From Balneolaceae bacterium (GTDB lineage Bacteria > Bacteroidota > Rhodothermia > Balneolales > Balneolaceae), in NCBI GenBank assembly GCA_017643365.1, contig JAEPNO010000006.1, forward strand, positions 62,001 to 126,000: DNA of 64,000 bases, in the 5' to 3' direction. Position numbers and translations under genes: made by a program. The notes under the pieces are model-generated. The model was not told where the DNA came from, ran no database searches, and saw only the letters and a program-made list of their open reading frames with translations. Positions 18,599-62,061 of this stretch are shown piece after piece (position 1 is the first letter of the stretch; each line of letters opens with the position of its first letter).

Positions 18599-18909
18599 TT
18601 GTCGAGCTCTCAGTAAGGTCGTATCGCGATACGCCCATACTGAGGGTGCAACACACGCATACTCAAGGCGCGGCGAAGAGTCATCTCAAATAATTACATA
18701 GCTAAATTAAGAGTTGTGAAGATCCTTCTCCGCCAGCTGGCGGATCTGGATGCCTATTATAAATAGTTTAACGCTTATTCTGTACTATGTTTGAATTAAC
18801 AATTGTTGTTGTAGATCTATCGTCTAAATTCACCCTTTGATCCTTTGATCCTTTGATCCTTTGATCCTCTAATTCTCCCGGTTCCCGAGCCTGTCGAGGG
18901 GCCGTAAAA
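18599..18909. other. intergenic region with degraded repeats
   Basis: The region contains a perfect 14-base palindrome CGTATCGCGATACG (about 18618) and a degraded copy of the GTCA-type hairpin repeat (GCGGCGAAGAGTCATCTC through GAAGATCCTTCTCC). An 8-base tandem repeat at 18835-18866 follows. No gene is seen. Confidence 0.6.
18835..18866. repeat. 8-base tandem repeat (CTTTGATC x4)
   Basis: Four perfect head-to-tail copies of CTTTGATC lie about 45 bases beyond the stop of the leftward LytTR regulator gene. A different 8-base repeat occupies the same kind of position at 25347-25378. Confidence 0.9.
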
Positions 18910-24100: not shown

Positions 24101-24798
24101 TTATGGTATTTAGACAACGCTATGGCGAAAATTTGACTAATGAGCTTTTGAAATCAAATATGCGGCAGTATTTCAAGAAACGGACGGGAAAAGATGAGGA
24201 TGAATCGCCGTTGAGCTTAGTGAAGTCGGGCGAGGATCACGTGTATTACCGAAAGGGATTAGTTGTGATGAATGCATTAGAACGATTGATTTCGGAAGAG
24301 AAAATCAACGCAGTATTATCGAGCTTTATCAAAGATTGGAACTCACAAAATGGAATAAAGCACAAGTTTGAGAGTCGATATCCTACAACCGAAGATTTAC
24401 TGAGCTATCTTTATGAAGTGACGCCAGAGGCTAAAATATCACAGGTGATAGAACTGCTTGAATCGGTGATTATTTACGATAATGAAATTAAGGAAGTGAA
24501 AGCCGATCAATTAGCTTCAGGTGATTATCAGGTAGAGCCAATACTGCAGCTGAGAAAACTGGATGTTTCTGATTGGGAGTCTGAACGTGAAATTAATTTT
24601 GATCATCCCGTAGAAATCGGATTCTATTCGGTAGATGAAGATGGGGAATTAAGGTTAATCGACATCAAAGGAATCCATCGCCAAAACAACGAAGAATCGT
24701 TCATTTATGAGTTTAGTGAAAAGCCGGATGTGGTGGTTATCGATCCAAAACTGATGTTGTTGGATAGAGATGTGCTGGATAATAAGAAAGAGTCCTAG
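21196..24798 (+). pseudogene. ABC permease fused to M1 aminopeptidase, interrupted by an in-frame TAG
   Basis: One frame of about 1200 codons with a single TAG at codon 136 (21601-21603). It begins FAELFLFELKYRARRFDTYF and runs through membrane helices to HQTSEL-stop, then continues SFHLWSYFQPFFGLILP with further helices to about residue 600. The C-terminal half is an M1 metallopeptidase with HEVAH at about 937-941, the next zinc-ligand Glu in AETLAQYSALM, and AENMG upstream. Such fusions pair with the ATPase just before. An internal start near 21676 would still give 1040 residues including the peptidase, so partial function is possible. It otherwise shows no decay, so the stop is recent or a sequence error. 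Confidence 0.85.
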
Positions 24799-25127
24799 TA
24801 AGGGCGTATCGCGGCCCTTACATCAAGTCACTGAGAGCGTAGCGAAGAGTCTTCACAAAAAGGTGTTTCCATAAATTGATAGTGAAGATCCATCACTTCG
24901 TTCTGGATGACTCGTTGTTATTGAATCGTTTATTACAAGGAGTCCTTTCCCTTTTGAAATGGGAAGCTATTTATGCACCGAAACTCAAAATTCGAGTGTA
25001 GGTGTAGAAGGGGTTTGTTCCTATTTGTGGAAATAACCAAGGACTAAAGTCCTTGCTTGATTATGTACTTTGTAGAACCACATTTTGATTCCAATAGTTA
25101 CTCACGCCTAGCTAAACAAGTCAATCT
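24799..25127. repeat. dispersed hairpin repeats, left flank of the duplication
   Basis: The region holds the hairpin GTAAGGGC...GCCCTTAC (24799-24824) and a GTCA-type hairpin module starting near 24827. A variant segment follows with TTTATGCACCGAAAC (24970-24984), then CAAGGACTAAAGTCCTTG (25038) and a second GTCA module from 25120. The part 24941-25127 is nearly the same as 29879-30065, 4938 bases away. No gene is seen. Confidence 0.8.
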
Positions 25128-25346
25128 GAGCGTAGCGAAGAGTCTTCCCAAATTTTTACATATCCAAATTTAGAGTTTTAAAGATCCATCATTCACTTAT
25201 GGATGACCTAAATTCGCAACTCGTAATTTTCAACCAACGAAGCTAATCTGTGTTAAAGCTTCGATTAGTAAACTTTAGCGTAGTTGATCTTTATTCATTA
25301 TTCGTAGATCAATTTGTTTGGATTAACAATTTTGAAGTACGCACAT

Positions 25347-25378
25347 TGTTCCTCTGTTCCTCTGTTCCTCTGTTCCTC
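25347..25378. repeat. 8-base tandem repeat (TGTTCCTC x4), copy 1
   Basis: Four perfect copies end two bases before the stop codon of the leftward amidohydrolase gene. Repeat number variation would alter only the 3' untranslated end. The same run recurs in the second duplication copy at 30285-30316. Confidence 0.9.
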
Positions 25379-25380
25379 AG

Positions 25381-27132
25381 CTACTCATTAAATCCATCAA
25401 AAACCAACCGCCCATCAACGATAGTGCCCAGGATTTTGCCGGTCCATAAGGAATTGGGGTTTTGTTCTCCAACGTTTAATACATCGATGTTTAGGATGGT
25501 AAGATCCGCGCGCTTTCCTACTTCGATGGTGCCGAGTACATCTTCTTGAAATGCTGCATAGGCCGACCAACTAGTATAAGCACGCAAAGCTTCTTCGGGA
25601 GTGAGCGCCTGTTCGGGATACCAACCGCCTTCGGGCTGATGATCCTTATTTTTTCGGGTGATGGCGGCATAAAATCCATAAAAGAAATTGTGATCACTAC
25701 CGGTTAAATCAGAATTGAAAGTAAGCGGAACGCCATGCTCTCGAAAAGTGCGCCATGCGTAAGCGCCTTTGATCCGTTCGCTGCCTACGCGATCTTCTGC
25801 CCAACCCATATCCTCAGCCATGTGCGGTGGCTCCATCGATGAGATGAGCTCCAAATCCGCAAATCGTTGAAAATCGTTTGGGTGAACCACCTGGGCGTGT
25901 TCAATTCGATGTCGATTTGATTTGGCTTGAGGGTTGGCTTCAAAAACACGTTGATAAAAGTTGAGCATATCCCGATTTCCGGCATCTCCAATTGCATGAA
26001 TTCCGAGCTGAAATCCGGCTTCCATCATTTGCTCAACCAGCTCTTCATTAAAACCGTAGTCTTCGCCACTAATGCCTCGGTGACCGGGTTTATCGGAATA
26101 ATCATCGATCAATTTTGCACCGCGAATTCCTAATGATCCATCGTAATACGCCTTTACTGCACGCACGGTGAACAGCTCGCCGGACTCGGTTTCCGGACCT
26201 TTCTGCATCCAATCTTTCAAAAGTTGTTCATCGGTGGCTTGCAACATGGCATACACACGAACCGGAGAAATACCCTCATCTTCCAATTGTTGATATGCTT
26301 CGAGATATTCCCGATTGGTGCCAGCATCATGAAACGCTGTGTAGCCCGACTGAGCCATAACCTCCATCCCATGAAGAGCAATCCGGCGAAAATCTTCTTC
26401 GGTTTTTGCGGGAAGTGATTCTTCGATTAACTCGGCTGCATTATTTAAAAAGATGCCGTTTGGCTGCCCATTTTGGTCTTTAACGATTTCCCCGCCTACC
26501 GGAGATTCTGTTTCGGCGGTAATTCCTGCACGACTCATCGCTTCGTAATTGGCTACCGAGGTAAAACCATGCGTACCAATAATAAATACGGGTCGATCGG
26601 GAAAGGCATCAGATAAATCCTGAGCAGTTGGTAATAACTCGGAGGCCATACTACCTTCATCATAACCAAAACCCAGAATCCAATCGCCGGCAGCAGTTGA
26701 TTCCTCCTGATGATCGAGCAAATGTTGCACAATCGATTCCTTATCCGCCAAACCGCTTAAATCTATTTTTCCTAAATCTTCTCCAAAATAATAAGGGTGC
26801 GCGTGACTGTCGACCAAGCCGGGAATTACGGTTCCGCCTTTTGCATCCAGCATTGTCGTGTTTTCATTTCGATAAGAAAGTGCGGTCTCCTCATCACCAA
26901 CAAACACGATATTTGTGCCTTCAATCACGATGGCTTCAGCATCGGGATTCCATTGCCCGTTTTGAAAAGGTGCGGCTGAATTCGTGCTTCCATCTTGATC
27001 CGGACCTGGCCACGCTAAGGTATAAACGTTGGCATTTGTGATGATTGTCCGTTCAGGGGCATTAGTTTTACAAGCCCAAAATGAGACAGTTGAAAAGAAG
27101 CAGATCAGAATAAGGGAGTAGAATTTTTGCAT
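25381..27132 (-). CDS. YtcJ-like amidohydrolase lipoprotein, copy 1
   Basis: About 583 residues from the ATG at 27132, which gives a clean lipoprotein signal (KFYSLILICFFSTVSFWAC); a start 17 codons upstream would mask it. The enzyme core belongs to the amidohydro_3 group. It shows VIPGLVDSHAHPYYFG with the metal-binding HxH, FHDAGTN, VRAVKAYYDGSLG, a later zinc ligand in GIHAIGDAGN, RIEHAQVV, and the C-terminal GKRADLTILN. It should hydrolyse an amide or related bond of an unknown substrate in the periplasm or at the envelope. It is divergent from the aldo/keto reductase gene, sharing a 200-base regulatory gap. Confidence 0.92.
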   Translation of the reverse strand: MQKFYSLILICFFSTVSFWACKTNAPERTIITNANVYTLAWPGPDQDGSTNSAAPFQNGQWNPDAEAIVIEGTNIVFVGDEETALSYRNENTTMLDAKGGTVIPGLVDSHAHPYYFGEDLGKIDLSGLADKESIVQHLLDHQEESTAAGDWILGFGYDEGSMASELLPTAQDLSDAFPDRPVFIIGTHGFTSVANYEAMSRAGITAETESPVGGEIVKDQNGQPNGIFLNNAAELIEESLPAKTEEDFRRIALHGMEVMAQSGYTAFHDAGTNREYLEAYQQLEDEGISPVRVYAMLQATDEQLLKDWMQKGPETESGELFTVRAVKAYYDGSLGIRGAKLIDDYSDKPGHRGISGEDYGFNEELVEQMMEAGFQLGIHAIGDAGNRDMLNFYQRVFEANPQAKSNRHRIEHAQVVHPNDFQRFADLELISSMEPPHMAEDMGWAEDRVGSERIKGAYAWRTFREHGVPLTFNSDLTGSDHNFFYGFYAAITRKNKDHQPEGGWYPEQALTPEEALRAYTSWSAYAAFQEDVLGTIEVGKRADLTILNIDVLNVGEQNPNSLWTGKILGTIVDGRLVFDGFNE

Positions 27133-27282
27133 GCTTAAAAGTGATGGGATTGTGCTATGATGGATTGAAGATATTGCAGCCAAGTATCGGACAATCGGAC
27201 TAGTTATTCAACTTATCAAAGATTAGTTTAGGCGCTAACCATTCAAAAATTAACTCTTTGTTAATCAGAACGTTGCAATGTT

Positions 27283-27304
27283 TAATGCTGTTGCAACAGT
27301 ATTA
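27283..27304. promoter_or_regulatory. 22-base palindrome between divergent genes, copy 1
   Basis: The left half is TAATGCTGTTG and the right half is its reverse complement with one base pair differing. It lies 29 bases before the aldo/keto reductase ATG and about 150 bases before the amidohydrolase ATG. A dimeric repressor or activator site is plausible. Confidence 0.6.
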
Positions 27305-27332
27305 ATGAAGAAACATCAAAGTAAACATCACT

Positions 27333-28331
27333 ATGGAATATAGATTTTTAGGAAGATCAGGGTTAAAAGTATCGGCATTGTCCTTTGGTTCGTGGGTAAC
27401 ATTTGGCGAACAGGTTGATACCGATCTGGCGTACAATCAAATGAAAACGGCATACGATGCCGGTGTAAACTTCTTCGATAATGCGGAAGGCTACGAAGCG
27501 GGTAAATCGGAAGAGATTATGGGTGCAGTGATAAAAAAAGCAGGCTGGAAACGATCGGATTTGGTGTTGTCGACAAAAATTTTCTGGGGTGGCGATGGCC
27601 CGAATGAAAAAGGACTTTCTTTCAAACACATTAAAGAAGGGACCGAAGCGGCTTTAAAAAGAATGCAAACCGACTACGTAGATTTACTCTTTTGCCACCG
27701 TCCCGATTTGTACACACCCATCAGCGAAACAGTGTGGGCGATGCATCAAATGATTTTGGAAGGAAAGGCGCTGTATTGGGGAACCAGTGAGTGGAGCGCC
27801 GAACAAATTCGAGCTGCTTATGATTTTGCCATTCAACATAATCTTCGTCCACCGTTAATGGAGCAGCCCGAATACAACATGTTTAACCGGCGCAAAGTAG
27901 AGAAAGAATACACAGCACTTTATCGCGATATTGGCCTAGGCACAACTATATGGAGTCCGTTAGCTTCAGGTTTGCTCACCGGAAAATATAACGACGGTGT
28001 ACCGGAAGGATCTCGGCTAAACATCGAAAAATACAGCTGGCTAAAAAAGCGCCTGCTCGAATCTGCCGAAGGACGAATTAAGCTCAGAAAGGTTAAAAAA
28101 CTGGCACCTATTGCTGAAGATCTTGGAATTTCGATGCCTCAACTGGCGCTGGCTTGGTGTTTAAATAATAAAGATGTGAGTACAGTTATCACCGGCGCAT
28201 CGAATGTTAAACAGGTGGAACAGAATATGAAAACGATGGATATTCTTGACAAAGTTGATGAGCAGGTGATGAAAGCCATTGAAGAAATTTTGCAGAATAA
28301 GCCGAAAGAAGATCAGGACTGGCGAGCTTAG
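27333..28331 (+). CDS. aldo/keto reductase, Kv-beta-like, copy 1
   Basis: A 332-residue NADPH-dependent oxidoreductase of the AKR fold. It shows YRFLGRSGLKVSALSFGSW, the catalytic Asp/Tyr region FFDNAEGYEAGKSEE, Lys in LVLSTKIFWGG, YVDLLFCHRPD (HRPD in place of the more common HxWD), and WSPLASGLLTGKY. The cofactor end is VITGASNVKQVEQN. The close match to voltage-gated potassium channel beta-subunit-like reductases (YghZ type) suggests reduction of small aldehydes such as methylglyoxal; the actual substrate is unknown. It forms an apparent two-gene unit with the small membrane protein 59 bases downstream. Confidence 0.94.
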   Translation: MEYRFLGRSGLKVSALSFGSWVTFGEQVDTDLAYNQMKTAYDAGVNFFDNAEGYEAGKSEEIMGAVIKKAGWKRSDLVLSTKIFWGGDGPNEKGLSFKHIKEGTEAALKRMQTDYVDLLFCHRPDLYTPISETVWAMHQMILEGKALYWGTSEWSAEQIRAAYDFAIQHNLRPPLMEQPEYNMFNRRKVEKEYTALYRDIGLGTTIWSPLASGLLTGKYNDGVPEGSRLNIEKYSWLKKRLLESAEGRIKLRKVKKLAPIAEDLGISMPQLALAWCLNNKDVSTVITGASNVKQVEQNMKTMDILDKVDEQVMKAIEEILQNKPKEDQDWRA

Positions 28332-28390
28332 CAATTATCCATCAATCAAATAGCTGAGAACTGAATTACAAACTGTTTTGGAGAACAAAT

Positions 28391-28828
28391 ATGCTGAAAT
28401 TTATTACCATAGAAACCGACTACAAACCACGTGAGCGAAAAATTGTTAACACCATAATGACGTTGCTCACGGCGGTGGCAACACTCATTTACCCCGACTT
28501 TCTATATCTGATCGCCGGTGGTTATTTAGTTGCTTTGGGTGTTTTGTTCTTTGCGTTTAAACTGCCAACATTTCTTGCAGCATTTCCTGCCGTAACCGGA
28601 GTGCTAATCCTCATATTTCCGGATTTAATACCCATAACCTTTGGGGTGTTCTTGATTTTGTTTGGCCTGATTTTCTTCTTTTCGTTCTCGCTAAGCATAC
28701 TTGGAGTGCTCACTTTCGTAATAGGGATGCTCATTTATTTTAATCCGGATTTGATTGCCTACTTCATCGCTGCATTTATGTTGATGTATGCTATAAATAA
28801 TATTTTCAGCTTAATAAGGAGTAAGTAG
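28391..28828 (+). CDS. small membrane protein with three internal repeats, copy 1
   Basis: A 145-residue protein, nearly all membrane. A short charged N-terminus (ETDYKPRERKIVNT) is followed by helices arranged as three repeats, each opening with a P-D turn: YPDFLYLIAGGYLVALGVLF, FPDLIPITFGVFLILFGLIF and NPDLIAYFIAAFMLMYAIN. The pattern recalls DUF3096-type one-repeat proteins in triplicate. No transport or enzymatic motif is seen. It follows the aldo/keto reductase and is duplicated with it. Confidence 0.75.
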   Translation: MLKFITIETDYKPRERKIVNTIMTLLTAVATLIYPDFLYLIAGGYLVALGVLFFAFKLPTFLAAFPAVTGVLILIFPDLIPITFGVFLILFGLIFFFSFSLSILGVLTFVIGMLIYFNPDLIAYFIAAFMLMYAINNIFSLIRSK

Positions 28829-28929
28829 GCATTAAAAATGAAGACAGCCCTGAAGAACTTTAGCGGGTGTATAAATCAGATATTGAAGATGCCCAAATTA
28901 AGCCCGCTATTGTTTCACGAATCGGCTTC

Positions 28930-30065
28930 CAAGGACTGAAGTCCTTGCTTGATTATGTTCTTTGCAGAGCTACATTATGATTCCAATAGTTACTCACGCC
29001 TAGCTAAACAAGTCACTCAGAGCGCAGCGAAGAGTCTTCCCAAAAAAAAGGTCTTTCCGTAAAATGATTGTGAAGATCCATCACTTCGTTCTGTATGACT
29101 CGTTGTTATAGACTAGTTTCATCCATGGAGTCCTTCCCCTTTTGAAAGGGGAAGACAGAAGGGGTTTGTTTCCATTAGTTGGAATAACCAAGGACTGAAG
29201 TCCTTGCTTGATAATGTTCTTTGTAGCATTGCACTCTGATCCCAACAGTTACTCACGCCTAGCTAAACAAGTCAATCTGAGCGTAGCGAAGAGTCTTCCC
29301 AAAAAAAGGTCTTTCCATAAAATGATTGTGAAGATCCATCGCTTTGCTCTGTATGACTCGTTGTTATAGACTCGTTTCATCCATGGAGTCCTTCCCCTTT
29401 TGAAAGGGGAAGACAGAAGGGGATTGTTTCCATTAGTGGAAATAATCAAGGACTGAAGTCCTTGCTTGATTATGTTCTTTGCAGAGCTACATTATGATTC
29501 CAACAGTTAATCACAATTAGTTAAACAGGTCACTCTGAGCGTAGCGAAGAGTCTTCCCAAAAAAAGGTCTTTCCATAAAATGATTGTGAAGCTCCATCGC
29601 TTCTTTCTGGATGACTCGTTGTTATAGACTAGTTTCATCCAAGGTAGACAGAGGGGATTGTTGCCAGTAGTGGAAATAATCAAGGACTGAAGTCCTTGCT
29701 TGGTTATGTTCTTTGCAGAGCTACATTATTATTCCAATAGTTAATCACACTTAGTTAAACAGGTCACTCAGAGCGTAGCGAAGAGTCTTCCCAAAAAAAG
29801 GTCTTTCCGTAAAATGATTGTGAAGATCCATCGCTTTGCTCTGGATGACTCGTTGTTCTAGACTCGTTTCATCCATGGAGTCCTTTCCCTTTTGAAATGG
29901 GAAGCTATTTATGCACCGAAACTCAAAATTCGAGTGTAGGTGTAGAAGGGGTTTGTTTTCACTTGTGGAAATAATCAAGGACTAAAGTCCTTGCTTGATT
30001 ATGTTCTTTGTAGAGCCACATTATGATTCCAATAGTTACTCACGCCTAGCTAAACAAGTCACTCA
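28930..30065. repeat. hairpin repeat array 1
   Basis: Five units of about 234-295 bases start at 28930, 29189, 29447, 29681 and 29976, each opening with the perfect hairpin CAAGGACT-GA-AGTCCTTG (AA in the last). Each unit then has a GTCA...TGAC imperfect hairpin of about 88 bases. Most also have a 10-base-stem hairpin CTTCCCCTTT/AAAGGGGAAG (for example 29133-29154). The last unit carries the variant TTTATGCACCGAAAC segment also found left of copy 1. No gene lies in 28829-30318. Confidence 0.88.
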
Positions 30066-30284
30066 GAGCGTAGCGAAGAGTCTTCCCAAATTTTTACATA
30101 TCCAAATTTAGAGTTTTAAAGATCCATCATTCACTTATGGATGACCTAAATTCGCAACTCGTAATTTTCAACCAACGAAGCTAATCTGTGTTAAAGCTTC
30201 GATTAGTAAACTTTAGCGTAGTTGATCTTTATTCATTATTCGTAGATCAATTTGTTTGGATTAACAATTTTGAAGTACGCACAT

Positions 30285-30316
30285 TGTTCCTCTGTTCCTC
30301 TGTTCCTCTGTTCCTC
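30285..30316. repeat. 8-base tandem repeat (TGTTCCTC x4), copy 2
   Basis: The same four copies as at 25347-25378. The identical copy number in both duplicates shows that little slippage has happened since the duplication. Confidence 0.9.
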
Positions 30317-30318
30317 AG

Positions 30319-32070
30319 CTACTCATTAAATCCATCAAAAACCAACCGCCCATCAACGATAGTGCCCAGGATTTTGCCGGTCCATAAGGAATTGGGGTTT
30401 TGTTCTCCAACGTTTAATACATCGATGTTTAGGATGGTAAGATCCGCGCGCTTTCCTACTTCGATGGTGCCGAGTACATCTTCTTGAAATGCTGCATAGG
30501 CCGACCAACTAGTATAAGCACGCAAAGCTTCTTCGGGAGTGAGCGCCTGTTCGGGATACCAACCGCCTTCGGGCTGATGATCCTTATTTTTTCGGGTGAT
30601 GGCGGCATAAAATCCATAAAAGAAATTGTGATCACTACCGGTTAAATCAGAATTGAAAGTAAGCGGAACGCCATGCTCTCGAAAAGTGCGCCATGCGTAA
30701 GCGCCTTTGATCCGTTCGCTGCCTACGCGATCTTCTGCCCAACCCATATCCTCAGCCATGTGCGGTGGCTCCATCGATGAGATGAGCTCCAAATCCGCAA
30801 ATCGTTGAAAATCGTTTGGGTGAACCACCTGGGCGTGTTCAATTCGATGTCGATTTGATTTGGCTTGAGGGTTGGCTTCAAAAACACGTTGATAAAAGTT
30901 GAGCATATCCCGATTTCCGGCATCTCCAATTGCATGAATTCCGAGCTGAAATCCGGCTTCCATCATTTGCTCAACCAGCTCTTCATTAAAACCGTAGTCT
31001 TCGCCACTAATGCCTCGGTGACCGGGTTTATCGGAATAATCATCGATCAATTTTGCACCGCGAATTCCTAATGATCCATCGTAATACGCCTTTACTGCAC
31101 GCACGGTGAACAGCTCGCCGGACTCGGTTTCCGGACCTTTCTGCATCCAATCTTTCAAAAGTTGTTCATCGGTGGCTTGCAACATGGCATACACACGAAC
31201 CGGAGAAATACCCTCATCTTCCAATTGTTGATATGCTTCGAGATATTCCCGATTGGTGCCAGCATCATGAAACGCTGTGTAGCCCGACTGAGCCATAACC
31301 TCCATCCCATGAAGAGCAATCCGGCGAAAATCTTCTTCGGTTTTTGCGGGAAGTGATTCTTCGATTAACTCGGCTGCATTATTTAAAAAGATGCCGTTTG
31401 GCTGCCCATTTTGGTCTTTAACGATTTCCCCGCCTACCGGAGATTCTGTTTCGGCGGTAATTCCTGCACGACTCATCGCTTCGTAATTGGCTACCGAGGT
31501 AAAACCATGCGTACCAATAATAAATACGGGTCGATCGGGAAAGGCATCAGATAAATCCTGAGCAGTTGGTAATAACTCGGAGGCCATACTACCTTCATCA
31601 TAACCAAAACCCAGAATCCAATCGCCGGCAGCAGTTGATTCCTCCTGATGATCGAGCAAATGTTGCACAATCGATTCCTTATCCGCCAAACCGCTTAAAT
31701 CTATTTTTCCTAAATCTTCTCCAAAATAATAAGGGTGCGCGTGACTGTCGACCAAGCCGGGAATTACGGTTCCGCCTTTTGCATCCAGCATTGTCGTGTT
31801 TTCATTTCGATAAGAAAGTGCGGTCTCCTCATCACCAACAAACACGATATTTGTGCCTTCAATCACGATGGCTTCAGCATCGGGATTCCATTGCCCGTTT
31901 TGAAAAGGTGCGGCTGAATTCGTGCTTCCATCTTGATCCGGACCTGGCCACGCTAAGGTATAAACGTTGGCATTTGTGATGATTGTCCGTTCAGGGGCAT
32001 TAGTTTTACAAGCCCAAAATGAGACAGTTGAAAAGAAGCAGATCAGAATAAGGGAGTAGAATTTTTGCAT
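30319..32070 (-). CDS. YtcJ-like amidohydrolase lipoprotein, copy 2
   Basis: The protein is identical to that of 25381-27132, with its own ATG at 32070, lipobox cysteine and the complete set of amidohydrolase metal ligands. Both copies are open and have their upstream regions, so the duplication doubles gene dose rather than leaving a fragment. Nothing in the sequence separates the two functionally. Confidence 0.92.
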   Translation of the reverse strand: MQKFYSLILICFFSTVSFWACKTNAPERTIITNANVYTLAWPGPDQDGSTNSAAPFQNGQWNPDAEAIVIEGTNIVFVGDEETALSYRNENTTMLDAKGGTVIPGLVDSHAHPYYFGEDLGKIDLSGLADKESIVQHLLDHQEESTAAGDWILGFGYDEGSMASELLPTAQDLSDAFPDRPVFIIGTHGFTSVANYEAMSRAGITAETESPVGGEIVKDQNGQPNGIFLNNAAELIEESLPAKTEEDFRRIALHGMEVMAQSGYTAFHDAGTNREYLEAYQQLEDEGISPVRVYAMLQATDEQLLKDWMQKGPETESGELFTVRAVKAYYDGSLGIRGAKLIDDYSDKPGHRGISGEDYGFNEELVEQMMEAGFQLGIHAIGDAGNRDMLNFYQRVFEANPQAKSNRHRIEHAQVVHPNDFQRFADLELISSMEPPHMAEDMGWAEDRVGSERIKGAYAWRTFREHGVPLTFNSDLTGSDHNFFYGFYAAITRKNKDHQPEGGWYPEQALTPEEALRAYTSWSAYAAFQEDVLGTIEVGKRADLTILNIDVLNVGEQNPNSLWTGKILGTIVDGRLVFDGFNE

Positions 32071-32220
32071 GCTTAAAAGTGATGGGATTGTGCTATGATG
32101 GATTGAAGATATTGCAGCCAAGTATCGGACAATCGGACTAGTTATTCAACTTATCAAAGATTAGTTTAGGCGCTAACCATTCAAAAATTAACTCTTTGTT
32201 AATCAGAACGTTGCAATGTT

Positions 32221-32242
32221 TAATGCTGTTGCAACAGTATTA
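32221..32242. promoter_or_regulatory. 22-base palindrome between divergent genes, copy 2
   Basis: Same as 27283-27304, again 29 bases before the aldo/keto reductase start codon. Confidence 0.6.
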
Positions 32243-32270
32243 ATGAAGAAACATCAAAGTAAACATCACT

Positions 32271-33269
32271 ATGGAATATAGATTTTTAGGAAGATCAGGG
32301 TTAAAAGTATCGGCATTGTCCTTTGGTTCGTGGGTAACATTTGGCGAACAGGTTGATACCGATCTGGCGTACAATCAAATGAAAACGGCATACGATGCCG
32401 GTGTAAACTTCTTCGATAATGCGGAAGGCTACGAAGCGGGTAAATCGGAAGAGATTATGGGTGCAGTGATAAAAAAAGCAGGCTGGAAACGATCGGATTT
32501 GGTGTTGTCGACAAAAATTTTCTGGGGTGGCGATGGCCCGAATGAAAAAGGACTTTCTTTCAAACACATTAAAGAAGGGACCGAAGCGGCTTTAAAAAGA
32601 ATGCAAACCGACTACGTAGATTTACTCTTTTGCCACCGTCCCGATTTGTACACACCCATCAGCGAAACAGTGTGGGCGATGCATCAAATGATTTTGGAAG
32701 GAAAGGCGCTGTATTGGGGAACCAGTGAGTGGAGCGCCGAACAAATTCGAGCTGCTTATGATTTTGCCATTCAACATAATCTTCGTCCACCGTTAATGGA
32801 GCAGCCCGAATACAACATGTTTAACCGGCGCAAAGTAGAGAAAGAATACACAGCACTTTATCGCGATATTGGCCTAGGCACAACTATATGGAGTCCGTTA
32901 GCTTCAGGTTTGCTCACCGGAAAATATAACGACGGTGTACCGGAAGGATCTCGGCTAAACATCGAAAAATACAGCTGGCTAAAAAAGCGCCTGCTCGAAT
33001 CTGCCGAAGGACGAATTAAGCTCAGAAAGGTTAAAAAACTGGCACCTATTGCTGAAGATCTTGGAATTTCGATGCCTCAACTGGCGCTGGCTTGGTGTTT
33101 AAATAATAAAGATGTGAGTACAGTTATCACCGGCGCATCGAATGTTAAACAGGTGGAACAGAATATGAAAACGATGGATATTCTTGACAAAGTTGATGAG
33201 CAGGTGATGAAAGCCATTGAAGAAATTTTGCAGAATAAGCCGAAAGAAGATCAGGACTGGCGAGCTTAG
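32271..33269 (+). CDS. aldo/keto reductase, Kv-beta-like, copy 2
   Basis: The protein is identical to that of 27333-28331, with the same upstream palindrome and the same downstream membrane-protein gene. The N-terminal LGRSGLKVSALSFGSW, the catalytic FDNAEGYEAG and the cofactor-binding ITGASNVKQVEQN are all kept. Confidence 0.94.
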   Translation: MEYRFLGRSGLKVSALSFGSWVTFGEQVDTDLAYNQMKTAYDAGVNFFDNAEGYEAGKSEEIMGAVIKKAGWKRSDLVLSTKIFWGGDGPNEKGLSFKHIKEGTEAALKRMQTDYVDLLFCHRPDLYTPISETVWAMHQMILEGKALYWGTSEWSAEQIRAAYDFAIQHNLRPPLMEQPEYNMFNRRKVEKEYTALYRDIGLGTTIWSPLASGLLTGKYNDGVPEGSRLNIEKYSWLKKRLLESAEGRIKLRKVKKLAPIAEDLGISMPQLALAWCLNNKDVSTVITGASNVKQVEQNMKTMDILDKVDEQVMKAIEEILQNKPKEDQDWRA

Positions 33270-33328
33270 CAATTATCCATCAATCAAATAGCTGAGAACT
33301 GAATTACAAACTGTTTTGGAGAACAAAT

Positions 33329-33766
33329 ATGCTGAAATTTATTACCATAGAAACCGACTACAAACCACGTGAGCGAAAAATTGTTAACACCATAATGACG
33401 TTGCTCACGGCGGTGGCAACACTCATTTACCCCGACTTTCTATATCTGATCGCCGGTGGTTATTTAGTTGCTTTGGGTGTTTTGTTCTTTGCGTTTAAAC
33501 TGCCAACATTTCTTGCAGCATTTCCTGCCGTAACCGGAGTGCTAATCCTCATATTTCCGGATTTAATACCCATAACCTTTGGGGTGTTCTTGATTTTGTT
33601 TGGCCTGATTTTCTTCTTTTCGTTCTCGCTAAGCATACTTGGAGTGCTCACTTTCGTAATAGGGATGCTCATTTATTTTAATCCGGATTTGATTGCCTAC
33701 TTCATCGCTGCATTTATGTTGATGTATGCTATAAATAATATTTTCAGCTTAATAAGGAGTAAGTAG
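33329..33766 (+). CDS. small membrane protein with three internal repeats, copy 2
   Basis: Identical to 28391-28828. The three P-D-opening hydrophobic repeats are unchanged. It is the last gene before array 2. Confidence 0.75.
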   Translation: MLKFITIETDYKPRERKIVNTIMTLLTAVATLIYPDFLYLIAGGYLVALGVLFFAFKLPTFLAAFPAVTGVLILIFPDLIPITFGVFLILFGLIFFFSFSLSILGVLTFVIGMLIYFNPDLIAYFIAAFMLMYAINNIFSLIRSK

Positions 33767-33867
33767 GCATTAAAAATGAAGACAGCCCTGAAGAACTTTA
33801 GCGGGTGTATAAATCAGATATTGAAGATGCCCAAATTAAGCCCGCTATTGTTTCACGAATCGGCTTC

Positions 33868-34945
33868 CAAGGACTGAAGTCCTTGCTTGATTATGTTCTT
33901 TGCAGAGCTACATTATGATTCCAATAGTTACTCACGCCTAGCTAAACAAGTCACTCAGAGCGCAGCGAAGAGTCTTCCCAAAAAAAAGGTCTTTCCGTAA
34001 AATGATTGTGAAGATCCATCACTTCGTTCTGTATGACTCGTTGTTATAGACTAGTTTCATCCATGGAGTCCTTCCCCTTTTGAAAGGGGAAGACAGAAGG
34101 GGTTTGTTTCCATTAGTTGGAATAACCAAGGACTGAAGTCCTTGCTTGATAATGTTCTTTGTAGCATTGCACTCTGATCCCAACAGTTACTCACGCCTAG
34201 CTAAACAAGTCACTCAGAGCGTAGCGATGAGTCTTCCCAAAAAAAGGCCTTTCCATAAATTGATTATGAAGATCCATCGCTTTGCTCTGTATGACTCGTT
34301 GTTATAGACTCGTTTCATCCATGGAGTCCTTCCCCTTTTGAAAGGGGAAGACAGAAGGGGATTGTTTCCATTAGTGGAAATAATCAAGGACTGAAGTCCT
34401 TGCTTGATTATGTTCTTTGCAGAGCTACATTATGATTCCAACAGTTAATCACAATTAGTTAAACAGGTCACTCAGAGCGTAGCGAAGAGTCTTCCCAAAA
34501 AAAGGTCTTTCCGTAAAATTATTGTGAAGCTCCATCGCTTCGTTCTGGATGACTCGTTGTTATAGACTAGTTTCATCCAAGGTAGACAGAGGGGATTGTT
34601 GCCAGTAGTGGAAATAATCAAGGACTGAAGTCCTTGCTTGATTATGTTCTTTGCAGAGCTACATTATGATTCCAATAGTTAATCACATTTAGTGAAACAG
34701 GTCACTCAGAGCGTAGCGAAGAGTCTTCCCAAAAAAAGGTCTTTCCGTAAAATGATTGTGAAGATCCATCACTTCGTTCTGGATGACTCGTTGTTCTAGA
34801 CTCGTTTCATCCATGGAGTCCTTCCCCTTTTGAAAGGGGAAGACAGAAGGGGATTGTTTCCATTAGTTGGAATAACCAAGGACTGAAGTCCTTGCTTGAT
34901 AATGTTCTTTGTAGAACTACATTATGATTCCAATAGTTAATCACG
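33868..34945. repeat. hairpin repeat array 2
   Basis: Five units start at 33868, 34127, 34385, 34619 and 34877, each with CAAGGACTGAAGTCCTTG. The first four are in register with array 1 (offset 4938). The fourth unit lacks the variant insert seen in array 1 and has the ordinary CTTCCCCTTT hairpin instead. Example GTCA module: 33950-34037. Differences from array 1 cluster inside the GTCA modules. The gap 34946-35111 shows nothing further. Confidence 0.88.
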
Positions 34946-35111
34946 GAAGAATAAAGTCATGGGAAGAAGGGAATTGAACTAGTACTAAATTTTTAAGGTT
35001 AACCAGAATGGTGATATTAAATGCCGAATAAATTAGAATGGTATTCAGATTTAGTTTATTCAGCCGATAAGTGAGTATCTTCCTGAAAGAAAAAAATAAT
35101 ACTGGGCGAAA

Positions 35112-37403
35112 TTGTCGCAGAATAACCTTCATAGTAACCGTTTTCCGCCGGCATTGTCCGGCTTTTTAATCGCTTTGCTGATCTTCAGTACCGGGATGCT
35201 TATATCCTATTTCCGATTTCAGGTACAAAAACAGAGCGAAGAAGGCGAATTGCGCGATGTTATGGAAATTGTTGAGCAGAACATCCAGCGTACTATTAGC
35301 GAGGCATACAGCGCGGCGCTCTTTTTGGCACTCACAGTGCAAGATAATGGCGAAGTAAAAAACTTTGAGACGTATGCCGAGAATTTGTTGAATAATCATG
35401 AAGGTGTTGATGTTCTGCAGTTAGTGCCCGATGGGGTTATTCAATATGTGTATCCTTATGAAGGAAATGAGGCGGTTATCGGTTACAATATTCTTGCCGA
35501 TCCAAAAGTAAATCGTGAGGTAATAAGAGCTACGGAAACAAGAACTGTATATTTTGCCGGACCTTTTGAGTTGAAGCAAGGTGGGATGGCTGTTATTGGC
35601 CGCATCCCGGTTATTATTGAAGATGAACTTTGGGGGCTGTCGGCGGTGATTGTTTACCTAAGTACGATGATCGAACAATCGGGCATAAACGAGTTTTCTG
35701 ACAAGTATTATTTCCAATTGGGAAAAACCAATCCAAACACCGGGATTGAAGAGTTTTTCATGCCGGGCGACAAAAACATTGAATTCGAAAACGGGCAATC
35801 GGTCAATTTCCCGGAAGGTGAATGGAAGTTATATGCGGCACATAAAAATGTGTCGAATGCTTGGTTTTCGTTTATTTTTATTGGGGGATTTTCTTTGGTT
35901 GGGGCCGTTTTATGCGGGTTTATGTCGTATAAACTGTTTCGTAAACCCTACGAGCTAGAAGATTTAATTGAAGAGCAATCGCGGGAATTATTGGAAAGTC
36001 GCGAACAGTTTAAAGAAAGCTCAGAATTGCTTACCTCGGTGCTTGAAAGTCCGCAAAACATTGTGATTTTCTCTCTTGATCGCAATTACAACTACATGGC
36101 TTTTAATGAGAATCACCGTAGTATTGCCCAAGATTTGTTTGGGGTTCCCATCAAAAAAGGGATGAATATATTTGATGTTGTGCCCAAAAAAGCACGCGCT
36201 TTGCTAATGGTTAATTATAACCGAGCACTTAATGGCGAAGCTTTCGAATTGGTTCAAGAAACTGTAGATGCAGAACTAAATGTTCAATATTGGCAAAATT
36301 GGTTTTCACCGATACGAGACAAACAAGAAAACATTATTGGGCTAACGGTTTTCTCTATTGATATTACTCAACGTGTTGAAGCAGAGCAAACCATTGAGCG
36401 GAACGAACGCCGTTTACGCACGCTGATCTCAAATTCACCTTATTGTATTCACGAACTTGATACCGAAGGCCGCTTGATTTCGATTAACGAAGCCGGTGCC
36501 GAGATGTTCAAAATGGATTCACCTGAGAGCTACCTTGGTCGGTATTATTTCGGCCTAATGAAAAACGGTTACCGCGAAAAATCAGAGCAATTGTTTAACC
36601 GCACCTTGTTAGGCGAATCTACCGAGTTTGGCTTTGATGATGGTGAAAACTATTTCGAGTCGTTGTTTATACCACTTAGAAACGATGACAATGTGGTTAC
36701 GAGAGTGATGGGGATTACTCAGGATGTAACTCAGCGGAAGCACTCTGAATCCTTTGTTGAAAACTCTTTACGCGAAAAAACTACGCTGTTAGCAGAGATT
36801 CATCACCGCGTAAAAAATAACTTGGCAATTGTATCCGGGTTGTTAGAGCTGCAAAAAGGGGAAGTTGATGACGAGCGTCTAACGGCAATTTTTGATCAGA
36901 GTATCAACCGAATTATAAGCATTGCTATGGTGCACGAGTTGATGTACAACACGCAAGATCTTTCTTCGATTAATGTGCACGATTATCTGGAAAAATTAGT
37001 GCCTGCAATTAGCGCTACCATGCAAAATCGAATTCAAAATGTGGATATCGATATTGACATCGAAGAGTACCGGCTTAACATCAACCAAGCTATTCCATTG
37101 GGATTATTGCTGAATGAACTGTTCACCAATTCGTTTAAATACGCTTTTAAAGATCGCGACGACAATCGAATCAGAATAAAATTAGTGGTTGATGACGAGA
37201 AGATTTCAGCAGTGTATGCAGATAATGGACGAGGATTTCCGGCGGATGTTGATTTTGAGAAACCAAAGAATTTAGGCTTGAACCTTATACATGCTCAGCT
37301 TCAGCAGCTAGATGCCGAGTATGAAGCAAAAACAAAAGATAAGTTTGAGTTAGTATTTCATTTTTCGGTTCAGGGCAGAGGGTCACATTCTAATATTAAT
37401 TAG
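35112..37403 (+). CDS. CHASE-PAS-PAS sensor histidine kinase (HisKA_2)
   Basis: 763 residues; the only start available is the TTG at 35112, since a TAA lies five codons upstream and no ATG precedes the first helix. The first membrane helix is about 16-38. An extracytoplasmic CHASE domain follows to about 245 (VYPYEGNEAVIGYNILADP, FAGPFELKQGGMAVIGRIPV), then a second helix about 250-275. Two PAS domains come next (about 310-430, 435-555). The HisKA_2 dimerisation motif is LLAEIHHRVKNNLAIVSGL, and the HATPase domain has LLNELFTNSFKYAF, YADNGRGFP and LGLNLI. CHASE domains bind small extracellular ligands. No regulator gene adjoins it; the lone receiver at 41129 is a candidate partner. Confidence 0.92.
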   Translation: MSQNNLHSNRFPPALSGFLIALLIFSTGMLISYFRFQVQKQSEEGELRDVMEIVEQNIQRTISEAYSAALFLALTVQDNGEVKNFETYAENLLNNHEGVDVLQLVPDGVIQYVYPYEGNEAVIGYNILADPKVNREVIRATETRTVYFAGPFELKQGGMAVIGRIPVIIEDELWGLSAVIVYLSTMIEQSGINEFSDKYYFQLGKTNPNTGIEEFFMPGDKNIEFENGQSVNFPEGEWKLYAAHKNVSNAWFSFIFIGGFSLVGAVLCGFMSYKLFRKPYELEDLIEEQSRELLESREQFKESSELLTSVLESPQNIVIFSLDRNYNYMAFNENHRSIAQDLFGVPIKKGMNIFDVVPKKARALLMVNYNRALNGEAFELVQETVDAELNVQYWQNWFSPIRDKQENIIGLTVFSIDITQRVEAEQTIERNERRLRTLISNSPYCIHELDTEGRLISINEAGAEMFKMDSPESYLGRYYFGLMKNGYREKSEQLFNRTLLGESTEFGFDDGENYFESLFIPLRNDDNVVTRVMGITQDVTQRKHSESFVENSLREKTTLLAEIHHRVKNNLAIVSGLLELQKGEVDDERLTAIFDQSINRIISIAMVHELMYNTQDLSSINVHDYLEKLVPAISATMQNRIQNVDIDIDIEEYRLNINQAIPLGLLLNELFTNSFKYAFKDRDDNRIRIKLVVDDEKISAVYADNGRGFPADVDFEKPKNLGLNLIHAQLQQLDAEYEAKTKDKFELVFHFSVQGRGSHSNIN

Positions 37404-37507
37404 GAAACCCGTTTTATATTTTTTTGAAGGTTTAATGAGTTCGATATATTAGGTTGCGTATGTGATCAGCCATTGTGGGTTCTCGTTTAATAGTTTAGAA
37501 TACAAAG

Positions 37508-39445
37508 TTGACAATTTTAGTGGGTGACAATAAAAAGAAAAGTACCTTTATTTTTTCGGGTATTGGGGTAGCGTTATTTATCGCTGTAATTGGGTTTAGT
37601 ATAGCTTTTCTGCAGTATAATTCAATTCTAAAGAGCGAAAAAGCAGAGACAACTGAAGTATTATTGTTGATTCAAAAGAACCTGCAATATGCCTTTCGTG
37701 AAGTAAACAGTGTGGCCTTGCTCTTGTCTCAAACCATTAGTGTATCTGGAGAGGTTGAGAATTTTGAAGAAGTTGCCTCTGAGTTAATGGAGCAGTACCC
37801 AACGGTTAACTTGTTGGAAATAATACTTGATAATGTAGTTAGTGAGATTTACCCATCTGAAGATATTGAAAATGTGATTGGGTATAACATGGAGCAAAAT
37901 GCTCGTGTAATGAGTGAATTGGTTACAGCGTACGAAAGAGACGCACTCTATGTATCAGGTCCAATTAGGTTGGTAGAAGGTAAGTTAGGCTTAATCGGTT
38001 TGCTGCCTGTGCAAAATAATGGGGGGGAAATTACGGCAGTTGCTGTAATCATGTACCTAGAAACCATTCTTGAAGAAGCTCAAATCGATCTCTTTTCCAA
38101 CAACTATGATTTTCTGTTGTACAAATACAATAGTTTTGATGGCACTACAGATGTCTATTTAGATAATGCTGAGAAGTCGAACGATTTAAGCCAATATGCA
38201 TCAATTTCGGTGGATGAAGCCGATTGGACGTTGTATGCAAAGAAGAAAAATCAAAATCTGGCTGTACACATATTTATCATCATCGGGATTTGTACAACGT
38301 TAGTGTCCATTATTTGTGGGTACCTTTCGTATAAACTTTTCCGCAAACCCTTCGATTTACAAGAGCTTCTGGATGAAAAGTCTCACGATTTAATTCAAAG
38401 TCGAGAAGAGTTTATGAAATATTCGAAGCTTCTTAACTCTATCCTCCAAAGCCCGGAATACATCTACATTTATTCTTTAGATACCGACTATAACTACCTC
38501 GCCTTCAACAAAACCCATGAAATAGCGGTACATAAAAAGTATGGGATTGGAATAGAATTAGGCAAAAACTTGCGTAGTATTTTACCCGAGCAAGATAAGG
38601 CTTATTTATTTCCTTATCTCAATCGTGCAATGCTGGGAGAGGCTTTTGAGGCCATTATCGAGTCCAAAGCTACAGATGGTGAAAGCAACTATTGGCAATA
38701 TTGGTTTTCGCCCATAAAAGATGATAATGGCAAAGTTACCGGAATAACGGTGTTCTCGGTTGATATCTCAGAGCGAAAGAAAGCAGAAGTTTTGATTAAA
38801 AAATCGCTGGATGAGAAAACAACGCTTCTTTCTGAAATCCATCACCGGGTAAAGAATAATCTTGCAATAGTATCGGGGCTTCTTCAACTGCAAAAATCAG
38901 AAGTTAATGATAACCGATTATCAACAATTTTTGACCAAAGCATTAATCGAATTATCAGCATAGCCATGGTGCACGAGTTGATGTACAGTTCCGATGATCT
39001 GTCATCCATTAATGTGCATGATTATCTGGATAAATTAATTCCAGCCATTAGTTCTACAATGCAAAATCGCATTCAAGATGTAGAATTTGATATTGATGTT
39101 CAGGATCATCGCTTAAACATAAACGAAGCCATTCCGCTTGGTTTACTTCTCAACGAGCTAATTACGAACTCCTTCAAATATGCATTTAAAGGGCGTAGTA
39201 ATAACCGAATTGCAATACACCTATCCGTTAACGATAAACAAATCCAAGTTTCATATTCTGATAACGGGATCGGATATCCGGAACATATTGACTTTAACAC
39301 CCCCAAAAACCTGGGTTTAAACTTGATACATGCACAATTACAACAATTAGATGCTAACTATCAGGTAGCTACAAACGGTAAATTTAAGCTTGAGTTCAGT
39401 TTCGTTTCGCAGGAATCAGATGCATTTAATGGTGTAGAAGCATAA
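37508..39445 (+). CDS. CHASE-PAS sensor histidine kinase (HisKA_2), paralogue
   Basis: 645 residues; a TTG at 37508 or a GTG at 37520 must serve as start because no ATG lies before the first helix. Architecture: membrane helix about 15-38, CHASE domain to about 240 (IYPSEDIENVIGYNMEQNA, YVSGPIRLVEGKLGLIGLL), helix, one PAS domain about 310-430, then LLSEIHHRVKNNLAIVSGLL and HATPase boxes (LLNELITNSFKYAF, YSDNGIGYP). The kinase core is very close to the preceding gene, and one PAS domain has been lost or never gained. The pair looks like a tandem gene duplication that has since diverged in the sensor. Confidence 0.92.
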   Translation: MTILVGDNKKKSTFIFSGIGVALFIAVIGFSIAFLQYNSILKSEKAETTEVLLLIQKNLQYAFREVNSVALLLSQTISVSGEVENFEEVASELMEQYPTVNLLEIILDNVVSEIYPSEDIENVIGYNMEQNARVMSELVTAYERDALYVSGPIRLVEGKLGLIGLLPVQNNGGEITAVAVIMYLETILEEAQIDLFSNNYDFLLYKYNSFDGTTDVYLDNAEKSNDLSQYASISVDEADWTLYAKKKNQNLAVHIFIIIGICTTLVSIICGYLSYKLFRKPFDLQELLDEKSHDLIQSREEFMKYSKLLNSILQSPEYIYIYSLDTDYNYLAFNKTHEIAVHKKYGIGIELGKNLRSILPEQDKAYLFPYLNRAMLGEAFEAIIESKATDGESNYWQYWFSPIKDDNGKVTGITVFSVDISERKKAEVLIKKSLDEKTTLLSEIHHRVKNNLAIVSGLLQLQKSEVNDNRLSTIFDQSINRIISIAMVHELMYSSDDLSSINVHDYLDKLIPAISSTMQNRIQDVEFDIDVQDHRLNINEAIPLGLLLNELITNSFKYAFKGRSNNRIAIHLSVNDKQIQVSYSDNGIGYPEHIDFNTPKNLGLNLIHAQLQQLDANYQVATNGKFKLEFSFVSQESDAFNGVEA

Positions 39446-58065: not shown

Positions 58066-58089
58066 TTGAATTACAATATTGACCTAATC

Positions 58090-58150
58090 TACACCTACAC
58101 ATAAAGTTTCGGTGCATAAATATCTTCTCCTTAACAAGGAGAAGGACTTG
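58090..58150. repeat. reversed copy of the TTTATGCACCGAAAC repeat segment
   Basis: GTTTCGGTGCATAAA (58106-58120) is the reverse complement of the variant segment at 24970 and 29908. It is followed by a 9-base stem CTTCTCCTT/AAGGAGAAG and GGACTT. The order of parts is the same as in the arrays, reversed. Confidence 0.75.
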
Positions 58151-61920: not shown

Positions 61921-62061
61921 TGAGCAATAAGTTTTGAATTCGCCCAAAAATGTAGAGGAAATGCGGTGGAAAACAAAAGAACAATAGAACATTGAACAGT
62001 TGAACAAGCTGAACTTCGAACTCTGGAGAATTACGAATATGAGAGATAAGATTTTCGATTT

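Follow-up and report, generated by a model that had tools for sequence, protein, structure and literature searches.

A hybrid palindromic repeat at the join of a tandem gene duplication in a Balneolaceae bacterium

Introduction

Dispersed short palindromic repeats reportedly act as recombination sites, and Shyamala, Schneider and Ames are said to have described, in 1990, tandem duplications with REP-REP join points at which the joined repeat is a hybrid. Their paper is cited in PMC7661048 and PMC11708052. Tandem duplications of Pseudomonas fluorescens SBW25 had endpoints in imperfect direct repeats, listed as intergenic on both sides, in two of five isolates (PMC7661048). In Burkholderia thailandensis, a region flanked by IS elements is duplicated, and the duplication resolved again, by RecA-mediated recombination between these elements (PMC9946442).

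Here we analyse a tandem duplication in the genome of a Balneolaceae bacterium whose two copies meet in a composite palindromic repeat of hybrid structure. A literature search directed at the mechanism rather than the organism found no paper on this duplication locus.

Results

A doubled three-gene block bordered by palindromic repeats

The window, by which we mean the whole stretch of 64,000 nucleotides that was analysed, covers positions 62001–126000 of contig C48 in a genome of 3.77 Mb and 51 contigs. It contains a tandem duplication with a period of 4,938 bp, in which a block of amidohydrolase, aldo/keto reductase and DUF3096 genes is present in two direct copies between a peptidase M1 gene on one side and a CHASE-domain histidine kinase gene on the other (Table 1). 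The amidohydrolase and reductase genes are divergent, and the intergenic region between them is present in both copies. Offset comparison shows that the copies are identical over an exact tract of 4,147 bp. Positions 24700–35100 gave no Rfam match at gathering score, and a near search of plasmid records with 24801–35000 returned no match.

The block borders consist of a composite palindromic repeat of ~258 bp per unit, in which we distinguish by eye (i) a REP-like inverted pair (GAGCGTAGCGAAGAGTCTTC ... GAAGATCCATCGCTTTGCTC), (ii) a CCCCTTTTGAAAGGGG palindrome and (iii) a AAGGACTGAAGTCCTT palindrome. One repeat (L) lies to the left of copy 1, four units (a1–a4) follow copy 1, and four units together with a truncated fifth (b1–b4, b5) follow copy 2. 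The first three units have the same lengths in both arrays, whereas the fourth unit measures 295 bp in array 1 and 258 bp in array 2. Parts of the composite repeat are dispersed across the organism's own genome. With up to 20 candidates scored per genome, which makes the count a lower bound, the query 34698–34955 found matches in its own genome and in at least five others of the 38 searched; the matches in these five relatives cover single parts only. Dispersed short repeats, as in RAYT-type REP elements, are thus present in the organism's own genome and in at least 5 of 37 relatives. Four matches to PF01797, the Y1 transposase family, occur in the same genome (G000:C44:160078, C22:88275, C33:94827 and C33:115386).

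Two 8-bp repeats were also observed in the window. The microsatellite TGTTCCTC is present in four copies and at equal length in both block copies (25347–25378 and 30285–30316); the second, CCTTTGAT, is located at 18834–18868, and a similar repeat makes up the 3′ end of contig C21. At 35112–39445, two adjoining CHASE-PAS-HisKA_2 histidine kinase genes cross-match the corresponding pair of the closest relative in the search, G002, at the DNA level, and are probably an older tandem pair beside the block duplication.

Table 1 Features of the duplicated locus. Positions are those of the window
Feature	Position	Strand	Basis or remark
Left-flank composite repeat L	24823..25150	+	read as parent of the join on its 3′ side
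37-bp variant segment in L	24967..25003	+	alignment
Exact tract, copy 1, 4,147 bp	25128..29274	.	offset comparison and shared-node list
Amidohydrolase (Amidohydro_3), copy 1	25381..27183	-	
Aldo/keto reductase, copy 1	27333..28331	+	
DUF3096 small protein, copy 1	28391..28828	+	scores 23.6 bits (Pfam cut-off 23.3)
Array 1, units a1–a3 (259, 258, 234 bp)	28931..29681	+	
Unit a4	29682..29976	+	hybrid, 295 bp instead of 258
Exchange interval GGAGTCCTT, 9 bp	29877..29885	+	common to L, join and b4
37-bp variant segment in join	29905..29941	+	alignment
Remainder of join	29977..30065	+	L-derived; 10 differences from L over 29958–30065
Exact tract, copy 2	30066..34212	.	offset comparison
Amidohydrolase, copy 2	30319..32121	-	identity to copy 1
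Aldo/keto reductase, copy 2	32271..33269	+	identity to copy 1
DUF3096 small protein, copy 2	33329..33766	+	identity to copy 1
Array 2, b1–b4 and truncated b5	33869..34944	+	
Counterpart of exchange interval in b4	34815..34823	+	

The join between the tandem copies is a hybrid repeat

Unit a4 exceeds its in-register partner b4 (34620–34877) by a 37-bp segment that is equal to a segment of L. The seven other complete array units (a1–a3, b1–b4) all lack the segment, which within the locus is confined to L and the join. The original prediction had placed a variant of the left flank in the last unit of array 1, and the 15-base variant TTTATGCACCGAAAC indeed starts at 24970 and at 29908; exact copies of it were found at a mean of 0.00 in 100 shuffles. 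A third exact copy is located at 58106–58120 on the minus strand. The prediction had further assigned the ordinary hairpin to the matching unit of array 2. Unit b4 does carry the ordinary palindrome TTCCCCTTTTGAAAGGGGAA and lacks the 37-bp segment, but the variant unit also retains the TTCCCCTTTTGAAAGGGGAA-type palindrome in imperfect form, to which a second short palindrome is added. When folded as DNA and compared with shuffles, the join segment is no more stable than expected (z −0.52), with z-scores of −1.96 for the array 2 segment and −2.43 for the left-flank segment.

We compared L base by base with array 2 (b4 and the start of b5), which yielded 31 informative sites for the join. To the left of 29877, all 15 informative sites are array-type and match b4. 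From 29886 onwards, 12 of 16 sites are L-type, five of them within a run of 81 exact bases (24939–25019 = 29877–29957), and four are array-type. A single breakpoint fits 27 of the 31 sites, a value equalled by 36 of 100,000 shuffles. The join is therefore a hybrid repeat, array-type on its 5′ side and left-flank-type on its 3′ side, with the switch located in 29877–29885. This is the two-part structure predicted for a crossover between the left-flank repeat and an array unit, which it supports; a RecA crossover and other short-homology exchanges are not separated by it.

At the four later array-type sites, L carries a base that is absent from every other aligned unit, and we therefore read them as later changes in L. 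On its 5′ side, the join agrees with b4 at 97 of 100 aligned sites and with L at 83 of 98. Agreement with a2 amounts to 96 of 99 sites with 5 gap columns. Since a2 fits nearly equally well by count, the assignment of b4 as partner is based on register and on 46 exact bases shared by join and b4 (29840–29885). Seven further sites match neither L nor array 2, though those agree with each other (29833, 29837, 29839, 29959, 29962, 29975 and 30015). The first three lie on the array side, where a4 reads as a2 and b2 do, while b4 reads as a1, b1 and L; this triple switch suggests an exchange between units.

Divergence between the copies is uneven

The copies differ at 0 of 4,147 positions in the core, at 17 of 602 in the outer array (29275–29876) and at 10 of 108 between the 3′ part of the join and L (25020–25127). 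Outer repeats that differ by 2.8% and 9% thus lie beside a letter-identical tract of 4,147 bp. Within the arrays, the units inside the exact tract show 0 differences in 344 positions compared with 17 in 602 outside (Fisher p = 0.0005, a guide only, as the end of the tract was picked from the same data). Hypermutability of the repeats as the sole cause of this pattern is disfavoured by the latter comparison. A base confined to a single unit accounts for 9 of these 17 array differences; the remaining 8, the triple switch included, concern bases that also occur in other units.

Since the copies diverge at the edges of the core but not within it, the core was probably homogenised later. The most economical reading would be that the join is older, that units exchanged some sequence with one another and that the core was homogenised afterwards; exchange with other repeats could also have caused the uneven divergence. 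A single recent crossover predicts none of the 10 differences in 108 positions between L and join beside 81 identical bases, which counts against the simplest model. The identity of the join side to its parent repeat that is expected of a recent event was not found, although there is no difference over the 81 bp or over the 4,147-bp core. The difference argues against recency, not against recombination between flanking direct repeats.

We also considered a second exchange, based on the equal phase of the exact-tract ends, both of which adjoin GTCA[AC]TC[TA]. This site differs in three of five in-register unit pairs (L/J, a2/b2 and a3/b3, not a1/b1 or a4/b4), and the equal phase is therefore likely a coincidence.

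The assembly supports a join without fixing the copy number

A short-read assembler may write a loop in its graph as two copies, in which case the true state could be (i) another copy number, (ii) a chromosomal copy together with an excised circle or (iii) a mixed population. In searches of the contigs, 44 of 51 were readable, the seven short ones (506 to 1,281 bases) consisting of N. Among the 88 ends of these 44 contigs, 226 pairs agree exactly over a terminal stretch of 72–77 bases and none over a longer one, which points to a short-read de Bruijn assembly at k=77, a value typical of SPAdes. A few sequences, probably insertion sequences, recur at the ends of many contigs, and repeats of that size were therefore not bridged. 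A k=77 graph of the region contains four shared nodes of 81, 4147, 207 and 98 bp, of which the 4,147-bp node exceeds the reach of ordinary read pairs.

Against a purely graphical origin, the 10 differences of the 3′ part of the join from L and the 17 between array 1 and array 2 mark the loop as a separate piece with reads of its own. We therefore infer that at least one molecule containing the join must exist, and a pure copying artefact of the assembler is rejected for the same reason. Exactness of the core was further evaluated by simulating the merging of core differences isolated by 77 bases, under the assumption that changes are evenly spread. At 0.3% divergence, the probability of an exact core was 0.12, and at 0.5% it was 0.007. 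With divergence of 1% or above, 0 of 4,000 runs gave an exact core; the outer array shows 2.8%. A bubble-merging assembler might be expected to merge surviving clusters of differences as well. If all of the DNA belongs to a single chromosome, only one order of the loop is possible. The assembly does not fix the number of copies, as two copies, more copies or one copy and a circle give an identical graph. Overall, we regard an assembly effect as a possible but doubtful explanation of the two copies.

A single copy in relatives

At E<=1e-100, the reductase was found in 22 of 58 genomes. Copy number, counted from the reductase alone, is one match in each of the 21 relatives and two in the genome studied here. 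G002 has one reductase copy and preserves the order amidohydrolase, reductase, DUF3096, kinase; its DUF3096 and CHASE-kinase ORFs are 144 bp apart, without an array. On the left side, its contig ends 528 bases from the amidohydrolase ORF and the peptidase gene is located near the end of another contig. Because the contig ends cut this side, the left flank could not be polarised with G002.

Mode of exchange and source of the variant segment

Around the exchange point, L and b4 are ~88% similar (86 of 98 aligned sites), and perfect homology is now limited to 9 bp, a poor substrate for RecA pairing today. The join could instead have arisen by short homology or by a palindrome-driven process (hairpin break, template switching or gyrase-type strand exchange) rather than by RecA pairing over long homology. 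This would fit the location of the 9-bp interval, directly beside the 5′ arm of the CCC(C)TTTTGAAAGGG palindrome, and the fact that L and b4 today share no perfect match longer than this at the exchange point. However, L and b4 are related from one end of the unit to the other and the exchange took place in register; the two may also have been more alike at the time of the event. Palindromes also occupy much of the unit, so that an exchange close to one of them is unsurprising. We consider this mode of exchange unlikely, though far from negligible.

The variant belongs to a dispersed family with 24 places in its own genome: 2 are exact, 16 cover most of the variant with 75–88% identity, and 6 match the palindrome only. 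Among the other places that span the variant, identity is at most 88% (52 bases) or 84% (73 bases), and matches of 93% elsewhere in the genome are confined to the 28-base palindrome. One diverged variant repeat is located in the window at 58088–58148 on the minus strand, between two minus-strand ORFs, and is 75% identical to the L segment. A random occurrence of the variant among array units of relatives was not found: at E<=0.001, the segment matched only its own genome among the 38 genomes searched, and L is therefore its best supported source. Independent entry of the variant into the last array unit by gene conversion from one of the 16 other dispersed places, unrelated to the duplication, is very improbable and was rejected, as 81 bp match L without a difference, compared with at most 88% identity at the other variant-covering places in the 44 readable contigs, and the sequence past the variant continues into the left flank of copy 2, a course that the join explains.

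Discussion

Features of a tandem duplication generated by recombination between flanking repeats are found together at this locus: direct copies, a hybrid join with one switch, and a single copy in all 21 relatives with a reductase match. We propose that an out-of-register exchange between repeats generated both the hybrid join and the duplication and that the core was homogenised afterwards, a reading to which we assign, as a whole, a probability of about 0.83. On sister chromosomes or replication arms, L would have paired out of register with the fourth array unit. An exchange at the base of the CCCTTTTGAAAGGG palindrome would then have yielded the order L – genes – array – hybrid – genes – array. 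With less confidence, we suggest that recombination between the 4.1-kb copies may have kept the core identical after the join had formed, while the outer array units and the 3′ part of the join might meanwhile have drifted and swapped short stretches with neighbouring units. As both copies hold the amidohydrolase/reductase intergenic region, the likely effect of the duplication is extra gene dosage.

More tentatively, the locus could be a long-lived amplification cassette. The join would be old, given the differences on its L-derived side (10 of 108 sites) and in the outer array (17 of 602). The 4.1-kb core, comprising three genes and 344 bp of array, would be kept letter-identical by continuing recombination, in the form of gene conversion, of recurrent cycles of amplification and loss or of passage through a circle; the palindromic arrays would serve as standing borders for changes in dosage in these bacteria. 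We consider this possible, if rather speculative.

The proposed exchange offers a clear natural case, from a little-studied bacterial group, of a gene duplication caused by palindromic repeats, in which the exchange can be placed within 9 bp. The locus also calls for caution, in that the age of a duplication cannot be read from the identity of its tandem copies; the flanks here look older than the core. Three points go beyond the original prediction: the narrowing of the switch to 9 bp, the uneven divergence between the copies, and a copy number that the assembly does not fix.

Compared with the REP joins that Shyamala et al. reportedly described in 1990, the locus is alike in its palindromic repeats as recombination sites and in its hybrid join. 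It differs from what is recounted of that work in that it belongs to the Balneolaceae, has composite array units of ~258 bp and was found in an assembly, not as a selected laboratory duplication. The duplications of SBW25 are unlike it, with repeats of about 1.5 kb, lengths of 45–290 kb and first detection on days 2–5 of an evolution experiment (PMC7661048). In B. thailandensis, homologous repeats flank the region as they do here, with a variable tandem copy number there; that system differs in its IS2-like elements, its size of 208.6 kb and the experimental proof of copy-number change (PMC9946442). The route to tandem duplication by recombination between repeats is already known, and the present locus is a new instance of it with REP-type join points.
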